DNA from: Paragemmobacter straminiformis
GTDB taxonomy: Bacteria; Pseudomonadota; Alphaproteobacteria; Rhodobacterales; Rhodobacteraceae
Direction of reading: 5' to 3'
Length of the DNA stretch: 64,000 nt
Assembly (NCBI RefSeq): GCF_014243445.1
Contig: NZ_JACLQD010000003.1
Coordinates: 248,001-312,000 of the forward strand
The notes beneath the pieces were generated by a model. It had not been told where the DNA came from. It ran no database searches and was given only the letters and a program-made list of their open reading frames with translations. Both the position numbers and the translations under genes were made by a program. Of this stretch, positions 26,255-44,094 are shown piece after piece. How positions within the stretch are numbered: position 1 is the stretch's first letter; each line of letters begins with the position of its first letter.

Positions 26255-28443
26255 CAACGCAGGTCATCTCGTTCGACATGCATCCGGTGCGGGTGGCGGG
26301 GGCGACGGTGCAGCCGCCCAAGCCCGCGCCCAAGGTCGAAGCGGGGCCGTTGCAGATGCGCGCGCGGCTTGCGGCCACGGCTGCGGCGCTTGTCGGGGCC
26401 GAGGTGGCCGGGGCCGATCTGGCCGAGGCGCTGGTCAAGGCCGGCGCGGGCGAGCGGCCCGCGCTTGCGGCGCTTGGTCAGGCCCTGCGCGAGGTGGCGG
26501 GGCTGACCGCCACGCTGGCCACCCGCCCCGACCTGCGGGCCGAGGATCTGCCCGCGCTGGTGGAAATGGCGGGCGGCCATGTGGTGCTGGCGCTGTCCCT
26601 CTCGGGCATCAGCGCCACCATCTTCGACGCCGAAGCGCCCGACCGTCGGGCCGAGATTCCCTTGGCCGATTTCCTGCCCGCCTATGCCGGAAAGCTGCTG
26701 ACCGTCCGCGCAGGCTTTGCCCAGATCGAAGCCCGCCATGCCGAAACCGCGGCCGAGGCGCATTGGTTCTGGAGCGAGTTCCGCCGCCACAAGCGCGCCA
26801 TGGCCGAGGTTTCGGCCGCCTCGCTGGTGTCGAACCTGCTGGCGGCGGGGATCGCGCTTTATTCGCTGCAAATCTACGACCGCGTGATCCCGCATCAAAG
26901 CGAGCCGACGCTTTGGGTGCTGTCGCTGGGGGCCTTTCTGGCGATTGCGATGGATTCGGCCCTGCGCATCGCCCGCTCGGCCCTGATGGATGCGACGGGC
27001 AAGCGCATCGAACTCGACGTGCAGGGGCGGCTGATGCAGCGGCTGCTGGGCATGAAGGCCGCACCCGGAGAGCGCAAACCTTCAGCCCTGTTCGCCGCGA
27101 TGCGCGATTTCGGATCGGTGCGCGAATTCTTTACCGCAAGCACCATCGGCACGGTGGCCGACCTGCCCTTTCTGGTGATCTTTCTGGCGCTTGTGGCGAT
27201 GATCGGCGGCAATATCGTCTGGGTTCTCGTCGCGGGCGGGGTGCTGATGGTGGTGCCCGGCCTTTTGCTGCAAAAGCGCATGGTGGCCCTGACACATGCG
27301 ACACAGGGGGCCAGCACACGGTCGGCCCGGCTGCTTTACGAAGCGGTGTTCGAGCATGAAACCCTGACCACCCAGCGCGGCGAGGAAAAGGTCGCGCGGC
27401 TTTGGGCCGAGCTTGTGGCCCTGTCGGCGGCAAAGTCGTCGGACCAGCGGTTGCTGACCACATGGCTGACCACATGGGCGCAGGGGGTGCAGCAGGCGAC
27501 CTACATCCTTGCCATCATGGTCGGCACTTACGAGGTCTTTGCCGGAACCTACACGGTCGGCACGATCATCGCCGTGTCGATGCTGACCAGCCGGACGCTG
27601 GCCCCGCTTGCGCAACTGTCCGGCACGCTGGCGCGGTGGTCCAACGTCAAGGCCGCCTTGCAGGGGCTGGAGTCGGTCGCCAAGGCCAAGCAGGCCGAGG
27701 AACCGGGGCGGCATTACCTGCGGCGCGAGCGGTTGAAGGGCGGCTACGAGCTGCGCGCGGTCGAGTTCCGCTATGACGCCAAGGCAAGCGCCACGGTGGA
27801 CGTTCCGGCGCTGGCAATCCCGCCGGGGCAGCATGTGGCGGTGCTGGGGGCGAACGGGTCGGGCAAATCGACCCTGCTGAAGCTGCTGGCAGGGCTTTAT
27901 GAACCGACGGGCGGGCGGGTGATGCTGGACGGGCTGGACCTTGGCCAGATCCACCCGCGCGATCTGCGGCGGCAGGTCGGCTATCTTGGTCAGGAAGTGC
28001 GCCTCTTTTCCGGCACGCTGCGGTCGAACCTGACGATGAACGCCCTTGAACGGGATGACGACCGCCTTCTTGACGCCCTCGATTTCGCGGGGCTGGGGCC
28101 CTTTGTGCGCAGTCATCCGCGCGGGCTTGACCTTGAGATCAGGGAAATGGGCGAAGGGGTCTCGGTCGGGCAGCGCCAAAGCCTTGGCTGGGCGCGGCTG
28201 TGGTTGCAGGACCCTACGGTCGCGATCCTTGACGAACCCACCGCAGCGCTGGACCAGACGCTCGAGGCGACACTGGTGTCGCGCCTTGGCGGGTGGCTCG
28301 CGGGGCGGACGGCGGTGATCGCCACGCATCGCATCCCCATTCTGCAACTGACCCAGCGCACGGTGATCTTGCAGGGCGGCAAGCTGGCGGTCGATGGCCC
28401 GCGCGATGCCGTGCTGGCGCATCTGGCAAAGGCGGCGCAATGA
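26251..28443 (+). CDS. Type I secretion ABC transporter (LapB-like)
   Basis: A 730-residue fused permease-ATPase of the inner membrane. An N-terminal C39-like domain (about 1-150) lacks a catalytic cysteine, so it recognises but does not cut the substrate. The transmembrane domain follows (AASLVSNLLAAGIALYSLQI, about 190-460), then the ATPase with GANGSGKST, VSVGQRQSLGWARL, and TVAILDEPTAALD. Length and domain order match LapB-type transporters of large adhesins. It starts with GTG overlapping the TolC-like gene and overlaps the HlyD gene by ATGA. Confidence 0.95.
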   Translation: MTTQVISFDMHPVRVAGATVQPPKPAPKVEAGPLQMRARLAATAAALVGAEVAGADLAEALVKAGAGERPALAALGQALREVAGLTATLATRPDLRAEDLPALVEMAGGHVVLALSLSGISATIFDAEAPDRRAEIPLADFLPAYAGKLLTVRAGFAQIEARHAETAAEAHWFWSEFRRHKRAMAEVSAASLVSNLLAAGIALYSLQIYDRVIPHQSEPTLWVLSLGAFLAIAMDSALRIARSALMDATGKRIELDVQGRLMQRLLGMKAAPGERKPSALFAAMRDFGSVREFFTASTIGTVADLPFLVIFLALVAMIGGNIVWVLVAGGVLMVVPGLLLQKRMVALTHATQGASTRSARLLYEAVFEHETLTTQRGEEKVARLWAELVALSAAKSSDQRLLTTWLTTWAQGVQQATYILAIMVGTYEVFAGTYTVGTIIAVSMLTSRTLAPLAQLSGTLARWSNVKAALQGLESVAKAKQAEEPGRHYLRRERLKGGYELRAVEFRYDAKASATVDVPALAIPPGQHVAVLGANGSGKSTLLKLLAGLYEPTGGRVMLDGLDLGQIHPRDLRRQVGYLGQEVRLFSGTLRSNLTMNALERDDDRLLDALDFAGLGPFVRSHPRGLDLEIREMGEGVSVGQRQSLGWARLWLQDPTVAILDEPTAALDQTLEATLVSRLGGWLAGRTAVIATHRIPILQLTQRTVILQGGKLAVDGPRDAVLAHLAKAAQ

Positions 28444-29615
28444 CGACATTCGACATGCCGCTTGCGGGTTCGGCACGGCGGGCGGGGCTGACCGTCTGGC
28501 TGATCGCGGCGACGCTGGGGCTGTTCCTGCTGTGGGCGGGCTTTGCATGGGTGGACGAAATCGTCCGCGCCCCGGGGCAGGTGGTGCCGTCAAGCCGCCC
28601 GCAGATCATCCAGAACCTCGAAGGCGGGATTCTGGCCGAACTGACCGTGGCCGAGGGCGATGTGGTGCAGGCGGGCCAGACGCTGGCGCGGTTGCAGGGC
28701 ACGCAATATCAGGCCACGGTCGATGACCTGACCGACCAGATCGCCGCGCTCGACATCCGCCGCCTGCGGCTTGAAGCGGAAAAGGCGGGCAAGGCCGATT
28801 TCGACGTGCCTGCCGAAGAGGCGGCGCGGGTGCCCGATATCGTGGCGTCGGAACGCGCGCTTCTGGCGGCGCGGCAGACGGATTTCGACACCAAGCGCAG
28901 CGGCGCCGAGGCCGTGCTGAAACAGGCCGCGCGCGAACTGGAAATGACGCAGAAGATGTTCGACCGCGACGTGGCCGCCGAGGTCGAGGTGACGCGGGCG
29001 AAGAAGGAAAAGAACGACGCCGAAGCACGGCTGAACGAGGTGGTCACGACGACCGACCTCGACCGCGCTTCGGAATATGCCAAGGTGCAGGCCGATCTTG
29101 CCTCGTTCCGGCAAAAGCTGAAACTGTCGCAGGACCAGTTGGCGCGGACGGTGCTGGTGGCCCCGATGCGCGGGGTGGTGAACCGCCTTGCAATCACCAC
29201 CATCGGCGGGGTGGTCCGGCCGGGCGAGGAGATCCTCGAGATCATCCCTCTCGACGAGGAGCTGTTCATCGAGGCCAAGGTAAAACCCTCGGACATCGCC
29301 AGCGTCCGTCTGGGGCAAGAGGCGACGGTCAAGCTGTCGGCCTATGACTACACGATCTACGGCACGCTGAAGGGCGCCGTGACCTTCATCTCGGCCGATA
29401 CGTTCAAGGACGACCGCTCGCGCGACCCGAACGGCGACCCGCATTACAAGGTGACGTTGCGGGTGGATATGTCGAAGCTCACCGAACGGCAGCACAGCCT
29501 TGAAATCCGCCCCGGCATGCAGGCCGAGGTCGAGTTGCTGACGGGCGGCAAGACGGTGCTGACCTATCTGACCAAGCCCCTGTGGCGGGGGTCCGAGGCG
29601 TTGACCGAGCGTTGA
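28440..29615 (+). CDS. HlyD-family periplasmic adaptor of the type I secretion system
   Basis: A 391-residue membrane-fusion protein. One N-terminal membrane segment (about 18-38) is followed by the lipoyl-type motif GGILAELTVAEGDVVQAGQT. A long coiled-coil runs through the central part, and the C-terminal beta-barrel contains VLVAPMRGVVNRL and SLEIRPGMQAEVELLTG. It links the ABC protein to the outer-membrane duct. The start overlaps the ABC stop (ATGA); the longer open frame from 28293 is inside the ABC gene. It is the last gene of the adhesin-secretion operon. Confidence 0.95.
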   Translation: MTTFDMPLAGSARRAGLTVWLIAATLGLFLLWAGFAWVDEIVRAPGQVVPSSRPQIIQNLEGGILAELTVAEGDVVQAGQTLARLQGTQYQATVDDLTDQIAALDIRRLRLEAEKAGKADFDVPAEEAARVPDIVASERALLAARQTDFDTKRSGAEAVLKQAARELEMTQKMFDRDVAAEVEVTRAKKEKNDAEARLNEVVTTTDLDRASEYAKVQADLASFRQKLKLSQDQLARTVLVAPMRGVVNRLAITTIGGVVRPGEEILEIIPLDEELFIEAKVKPSDIASVRLGQEATVKLSAYDYTIYGTLKGAVTFISADTFKDDRSRDPNGDPHYKVTLRVDMSKLTERQHSLEIRPGMQAEVELLTGGKTVLTYLTKPLWRGSEALTER

Positions 29616-29621
29616 AAGAAT

Positions 29622-29730
29622 CGATTTCTGACGCAGAAATCGCGACGGAATTTGGCGCAAATTCCGGGCGACCAACCGCAGGGTCCGATTTCTGCGCCAG
29701 AAATCGACGCGGAAATTGCGTCAATTTCCG
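29622..29730. repeat. Array of four 21-bp palindromes arranged A-B-A'-B'
   Basis: Four perfect inverted repeats each have 9-base arms and a 3-base centre. A: CGATTTCTG arm at 29622-29642. B: CGGAATTTG arm at 29646-29666. A': CGATTTCTG arm at 29686-29706. B': CGGAAATTG arm at 29710-29730. A and B, and A' and B', are each three bases apart, with 19 bases between the two modules. The array fills the gap between the convergent HlyD and ubiG genes. No U-tract is present. It resembles a REP/BIME-like element; its role is unknown. Confidence 0.9.
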
Positions 29731-29731
29731 C

Positions 29732-30472
29732 CTAGCGCCGGATGCTTGTCGTCGCGTAATTGCACGACAGATCGCGCGAGGACAGCGACCACGACCATGC
29801 GACAGGGTTGAAGACCATGCCCTTGCGGTCGACAGGGTCAAGCCCCGCGCGGCGCAGCAGGTCGTAAAGCTCGTCCGGGGTGATGAACTTGGCCCAGTCA
29901 TGCGTGCCCTTGGGCAGCCAGCGCATGACCCATTCTGCCCCGATGATCGCCATCATGAAGCTTTTCGGATTGCGGTTGAGGGTCGAGCAGACCATCAGCC
30001 CGCCCTGTTTCAAAAGGTCGCGGCAGGCGGTCAGATAGGCCAGCGGGTCCGAGACATGTTCCACCACCTCCATGTTCAGCACCACGTCGAAGCGTTCGCC
30101 CGCTGCGGCAAGGTCCTCGGCGGTGGTGTGGCGGTAGTCGATGTCCAGCCCCGACTGTTCGGCATGAAGCCGCGCCACAGGGATGTTGCGCGGGGCGGCA
30201 TCGGCCCCCACGACCGTTGCGCCAAGCCGCGCCATCGGTTCCGAAAGCAGCCCGCCGCCGCAGCCGATATCAAGGATTCGCAGGCCCGCAAAAGGCAGCG
30301 GCCCGGTCAGGTCGCGGTCGAATTCGGCGGCGATCTGGCTGGTGATATAGCCAAGGCGGCAGGGGTTGAGCATATGCAGCGGCTTGAACTTGCCGTTGGG
30401 GTCCCACCACTCGGCAGCCATCGCTTCGAACTTGGCGACCTCGGCGGGGTCGATGGTGGATTGGGTTTGCAT
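29732..30472 (-). CDS. ubiG: Ubiquinone biosynthesis O-methyltransferase UbiG
   Basis: A 246-residue SAM-dependent methyltransferase for both O-methylation steps of ubiquinone synthesis. Motif I is [19 protein letters not shown] (residue 66 onward), preceded by the family N-terminus [19 protein letters not shown] and followed by [11 protein letters not shown]. The start is the ATG at 30472 with AAAGGCGC upstream. A longer open frame runs across the divergent promoter region and is rejected. It stands alone on the minus strand, divergent from the aminopeptidase gene. Confidence 0.96.
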
Positions 30473-30491
30473 GATGCGCCTTTCGTTTGCC

Positions 30492-38096: not shown

Positions 38097-38114
38097 TGGT
38101 TTTGACAGACAAGG

Positions 38115-38146
38115 AAAAAGGCCGCGCTGGAAAGCGCGGCCTTTTT
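38115..38146. terminator. Bidirectional intrinsic terminator after infB
   Basis: A 14-bp stem AAAAAGGCCGCGCT and its complement with a four-base loop. A-rich and T-rich flanks make it work on both strands: for infB on the plus strand and for the 46-codon gene on the minus strand. Confidence 0.92.
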
Positions 38147-38186
38147 CGTTGCGGCATGACCGACGGCTGCGACCGGAAGCGCGCGG

Positions 38187-44062: not shown

Positions 44063-44094
44063 AAAAACCCCCGCAGGTTCTGCGGGGGTTTTTT
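44063..44094 (+). terminator. Intrinsic terminator after secA
   Basis: A 14-bp stem AAAAACCCCCGCAG and its complement with a three-base loop, ending in TTTTTT. It starts 20 bases after the secA stop codon. Confidence 0.95.

Follow-up and report, generated by a model that had tools for sequence, protein, structure and literature searches.

A four-palindrome array between two genes

What kind of element is it that leaves almost nothing but palindromes between two facing genes? In the stretch of DNA that was analysed (the 64,000-nucleotide window, G000:C10:248001-312000 of a 4.12-Mb assembly), a gap of 116 bp separates the stop codon of an HlyD-type gene from that of ubiG, and four palindromes take up nearly all of it (Table 1). 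We propose, with a probability of about 0.5, that an interspersed DNA element of REP/BIME-like kind, defined by the shape of its hairpins, has one of its copies here.

An earlier note on this DNA described four perfect 9-3-9 palindromes in a repeated A-B-A'-B' module, with freely varying 3-base centres and without a U-tract. All four palindromes are present, the fourth being one pair longer than described (10-3-10), and the arm sequences of A, B, and B' match that description. The repeated module does not hold: the loops read ACG and GCG, then CGC and CGT, that is, RCG twice followed by its complement CGY twice, so the array consists of two units and two inverted units (>> <<) laid out as >(24)>(40)<(24)< in bp from centre to centre. 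The centres are restricted to RCG or CGY instead of varying freely, and the arms of A and A' are identical because ATTTC is among the commonest arm words of the family to which they belong. The + strand indeed lacks a U-tract, but the − strand carries a weak one, ATTCTTTC, after the last hairpin.

Table 1. Features of the array and its flanking genes (window coordinates unless a contig is given)
Feature	Position	Strand	Description
HlyD-family type I secretion adaptor gene	28293..29615	+	Pfam HlyD_3, E 2e-20; ORF listing, start as listed (true start may be further in); stop codon 29613-29615, 6 bp upstream of unit 1
Unit 1	29622..29642	+	'>'; CGATTTCTG-ACG-CAGAAATCG; perfect 9-3-9 palindrome; R1 match G000:C10:277621-277643:+
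Unit 2	29646..29666	+	'>'; CGGAATTTG-GCG-CAAATTCCG; 9-3-9; centre 24 bp from unit 1 centre; R1 match
Doublet, units 1+2	G000:C10:277621-277667	+	R2 doublet match
Central spacer	29667..29685	.	Between unit 2 and unit 3
Unit 3	29686..29706	−	'<'; CGATTTCTG-CGC-CAGAAATCG; 9-3-9; R1 match
Unit 4	29709..29731	−	'<'; GCGGAAATTG-CGT-CAATTTCCGC; 10-3-10; centre 24 bp from unit 3; R1 match; last base adjoins the ubiG stop codon
UbiG-like methyltransferase gene (homologous part)	29732..30487	−	Pfam methyltransferase matches; homologues in congeners; stop codon 29732-29734

A family of units with a fixed layout

The suggestion that the arms are commoner than chance is borne out by exact pattern matching across the 4.1-Mb genome, which returned 16 occurrences of A, 35 of B/B', and none of either pattern in reverse. 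The TG-RCG-CA centre was absent from all 3-base-loop palindromes with stems of at least 8 bp in twelve further 20-kb segments of the genome (240 kb). A chance origin of the palindromes is excluded. As the earlier note had supposed in calling the array REP/BIME-like, its arms are dispersed through the genome as a family of islands.

Reading other sites revealed that A and B are just two words of a larger family, whose unit is CG-N5-TG-RCG-CA-N5'-CG and whose arms vary but pair; 16 different inner arms occur among 103 perfect units in approximately 590 kb. The loop, RCG or, when inverted, CGY, sets the orientation of each unit. A covariance model of the unit (R1) gave at least 143 matches in about 31 islands of the source genome, a rough lower bound in which a few matches are one site read on both strands; the total is at least approximately 135 units in 31 islands, all genome-wide counts being model-based lower bounds.

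The spacing of the units is rigid. Of 194 pairs of same-orientation neighbours lying within 130 bp of each other, 176 have a centre-to-centre distance of exactly 24 bp, and most of the other spacings fit the periods of tandem-expanded copies (approximately 110 bp in island L005, 83 bp in L015, and 102 bp in L031). Of the 94 islands that have three or more units, 93 place every '>' unit before every '<' unit, and the inner pair of units usually lie 37-40 bp apart, giving about 39 bp between the halves. These data show an element in which four hairpins with 9-bp stems and purine-C-G loops are arranged as >(24)>(~39)<(24)<.

Distribution across genomes

The genus is Tabrizicola (Rhodobacteraceae), as the ubiG locus of one congener matches that of Tabrizicola sp. 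TH137 without a difference through 3.7 kb (L140 = L050). R1 was positive in 18/18 congeners, with 2 to 170 matches each, and had no match in 12 genomes from other families. A second model, built on the 47-nt doublet (R2), was positive in 25 of 246 Rhodobacteraceae genomes, representing 24 of 245 genera, the match counts in several of these genera being lower bounds. Among 241 class-wide genomes the source genome was the sole R2 match, and no other family sampled was positive. The two-plus-two inverted layout recurs in most examples fetched from other genera, combined with different arms and different loop-closing pairs, and the islands often follow a stop codon directly; some genera carry single doublets. 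What is conserved across genera is geometry and loop, not arm sequence, and the spread within the family is shown to be patchy. The idea of a family particular to this lineage therefore stands as far as a dispersed lineage family is concerned but is too narrow, since the geometry occurs with other arms in about one tenth of the family genera sampled.

The element was absent at ubiG in 80 named Rhodobacteraceae loci of other genera. Plasmid records gave weak matches only (24-35% of the query covered), at least one of them inside an HlyD gene, and a search of Rfam at E <= 1 gave nothing within the element. We found no prior description in the open-access literature, searched by topic and by sequence string (subscription papers lay outside this scope).

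Position relative to genes and terminators

Across pooled genomes, the median distance of an island is 6 bp to the 3' end of a gene (82/121 within 15 bp) and 71 bp to the 5' end (16/103 within 15 bp). Convergent gaps held 14 of 28 islands in the first gene call (p 6e-5) and 29 of 112 in a larger set, against 20% (p 0.12); convergent-gene specificity, strong in the first set and weak in the second, was dropped. We claim only the proximity to stop codons, given that the gene calls come from a simple method and that high GC content produces spurious ORFs.

This proximity also counts against a DNA element, as it is equally expected of an element acting in RNA at transcript 3' ends. In such a two-way module, a transcript arriving from either side would form two RCG-loop hairpins and each gene would obtain a protected 3' end. 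We consider this explanation unlikely on balance, and hold with the same reserve the ways in which it might act, namely by stopping the polymerase, perhaps with Rho, or by blocking 3' exonucleases. It would account for the contrast between the distances to stop and start codons, for a layout that is identical from either side, for the strong covariation described below, and for an RNA fold of the region that is far better than that of shuffles (z −5.6).

The properties of the stems and of neighbouring terminators point the other way. Where an intrinsic terminator has a GC-rich stem and a U-tract, the array has AT-rich arms, in a genome of 66% GC, and one weak site on the − strand; 1 terminator-like site was found in the array region versus 3.2 expected from shuffles. 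In two relatives (G007 and G011) a canonical intrinsic terminator precedes the island at gapdh, and in the source genome, where a terminator-like stem precedes the gapdh island, the order is probably the same. Canonical terminators occur in 7/14 gaps with islands versus 14/67 other gaps, a few of the sites counted in island gaps being the island hairpins themselves, so that island gaps are not depleted of them. Islands can share a gap with canonical terminators, which rules out a stand-in for missing terminators. Gaps between tandem genes keep both halves of the array as well.

Mismatches bear on the same question. GU is the main intermediate in the compensated stem evolution of the terminators that have been studied (PMC5381666), but the small set of 15 stem mismatches found among imperfect stems comprises 7 G-T and 8 A-C, with no wobble preference. 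At the two loop-closing pairs, 12 A-C and 0 G-T mismatches were counted reading in the '>' direction, which would be wobble-compatible on the opposite strand, a point against the DNA reading.

Bidirectional intrinsic terminators resemble the array in that hairpins fill a convergent gap and stems evolve by compensation (PMC5381666). The array differs from them in having four hairpins and in being able to sit beyond a true terminator; moreover, the lack of a + strand U-tract, the AT-rich stems, the gapdh terminators, the undepleted terminators, and the lack of a G-U preference together oppose a chief role in termination. A REP/BIME-like DNA element is favoured over a terminator because the gapdh island follows one and because mismatches show no G-U preference.

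Two further kinds of hairpin were seen. Within the window, two strong palindromes (38114-38147 and 44063-44093), both symmetric and with tracts of A and T, resemble intrinsic terminators, which suggests that the source genome uses canonical terminators. In G005 (L261), approximately 100-250 bp past the end of the gapdh coding sequence, lies a different two-plus-two hairpin island with loops of 3-4 bases (TGGC, TTGC / GCA, GCCA), which may be a sister family whose core has been shortened.

Pairing is kept while the arms change

To compare orthologous hairpins, islands of the source genome were matched by their flanks to those of G013, the closest sibling examined, giving 45 hairpins and 405 pairs. 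Between the two genomes, 18 double changes preserve Watson-Crick pairing, 10 changes are single, and 3 double changes do not keep pairing, while independent change at the same rate predicts approximately 0.6 pair-keeping doubles and 49 singles. These compensated changes uphold the earlier view that pairing is preserved. Doublets compared across genera also covary (score 0.76 versus 0.20 when shuffled); the orthologue comparison is the cleaner of the two because the cross-genus set was picked for near-perfect pairing. At the gapdh island, followed through four species, the layout is constant and the arm words shift a few pairs at a time.

Perfect arms might also arise without function, if strand switching during replication copied one arm onto the other. 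Hairpin-templated correction of this kind is known in bacteria, and it would explain why pair-preserving doubles exceed singles and why 305 of 341 recognisable partner hairpins (89%) are perfect. We nevertheless consider it improbable, as it does not account for a loop fixed as RCG, a spacing of 24 bp, the order of '>' before '<', or the rule governing arm words given below. It also fails to explain why stems diverge by 6.4% per site when the spacers of the same islands diverge by 52% (gaps scored as differences). Since the letters change freely while pairing, loop, and spacing hold, the data suggest that the hairpin shape itself is kept.

The arms do follow a rule of composition. In the genus (Tabrizicola), 24 of 26 distinct 5-base arm words begin with a run of purines, end with a run of pyrimidines, and contain no pyrimidine-purine step (chance 6/32, p 8e-16); the same is true of 18/21 arm words in other genera and of 8/34 control palindromes. 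The words are A-tract-like, with 78% AT, and under the 24-bp phasing the A-tracts recur approximately every 12 bp. Such evenly phased tracts, together with the gathering at gene 3' ends of the alphaproteobacterial protein GapR, found between convergent genes in other hosts (PMC8360656), would fit a predicted BIME-2-like or GapR-like site, where a nucleoid protein or gyrase would act on double-stranded DNA at the 3' ends of genes, but we judge this very improbable, as duplex recognition needs no mutually pairing arms of varying sequence.

A proposed DNA element specified by geometry

For the REP/BIME-like DNA element we envisage the following mechanism. The hairpins would form in DNA, as cruciforms or in strands left single by replication or transposition, and a putative trans-acting factor would read the stem-loops and their 24-bp phasing. 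The arm sequence would then be free to drift provided that both arms change together. Copies would persist immediately behind stop codons, where they are of use or cause the least harm, and might occasionally be gained, lost, or amplified in tandem. Their mobilisation may depend on an enzyme that is not a REP-associated tyrosine transposase (RAYT), or it may have ended.

A stricter form of this proposal, which we advance tentatively and at less than even odds, is that the elements are specified by nothing but their geometry (stems of 9 bp with almost any purine-run/pyrimidine-run sequence, an RCG loop, and the 24-39-24 inverted layout), are read as DNA hairpins by a putative structure-specific factor, and are patchily distributed in Rhodobacteraceae without a REP transposase.

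The family has much in common with the REP/BIME of enterobacteria and the REPINs of Pseudomonas: the short extragenic palindromes number in the dozens, form inverted pairs close to the 3' ends of genes, expand in tandem, and differ in presence from species to species. It differs from these members of the GTAG superfamily in lacking the GTAG tag and a RAYT, in its unconserved arm sequence, and in its rigid 24-39-24 layout of two doublets where REP/REPINs have one inverted pair. Column composition over 103 perfect units and 186 doublets showed no GTAG at the palindrome foot, the feet being CG. The CGTC REPs of alphaproteobacteria, whose marks are a CGTC left unpaired at one end, a tail of CCA type, and loops of 4-5 bases, are likewise palindromes found mostly in inverted pairs without a dedicated transposase (PMC3733652); by contrast, the present element has GACGC/GCGTC as the centre of its hairpin, a 3-base loop (RCG/CGY), and neither tag nor tail. 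Membership of the GTAG REP/REPIN and CGTC REP families thus fails on the defining features tested, and the element is REP/BIME-like in the broad sense of many dispersed short extragenic palindromes in inverted clusters (about 31 islands).

Most bacterial palindromic repeats are recognised by sequence, while this element is invisible to sequence searches between genera and obvious as geometry. A covariance model based on geometry may reveal further such families. Each genome offers approximately 100 natural replicates of compensated hairpin evolution in intergenic DNA. They provide a means of asking if DNA hairpins at the ends of genes are under selection by the machinery of the cell, and which factor is responsible for moving or maintaining REP-like repeats without a RAYT.

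Gain, loss, and mobilisation

The earlier note had proposed looking for a RAYT transposase. No Y1 transposase (PF01797, Y1_Tnp) scored over the family cut-off in any of the 19 genus genomes, with control genomes positive and one sub-threshold match in G008; a RAYT-driven REPIN is ruled out on this ground. No mobiliser of the islands was found, and no target-site duplication was demonstrated at them; both points weigh against the DNA element proposed here.

About half of the islands are common to the source genome and G013 by flank matching, the remainder being species-specific or undetected; copies are therefore gained and lost as well as inherited. The window site itself varies. In G013 (L126) the palindromes are replaced by a segment of approximately 540 bp between ubiG and the HlyD gene. 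In G011 (L127) the orthologous gap is filled by a different hairpin, the palindrome CTGTCATCCCCGCTTGCGCGGGGATGACAG, which we take to resemble known CGTC-1 REPs, and in G007 the site has no palindrome. Arms no commoner than chance and absent from the same place in relatives had been named as grounds for rejecting the element; it is indeed missing there in the three nearest relatives examined, but its arms are far above chance and about half of the other islands are common to the closest sibling.

Two minor observations come from G013. Judged by eye, the segment at the window site carries an apparent, putative HicB-like antitoxin ORF. Elsewhere (L149, 1119-1157), a single loopless 24-bp palindrome, GCAAATTTCTTCGAAGAAATTTGC, lies where the source genome has a four-hairpin island (L012).
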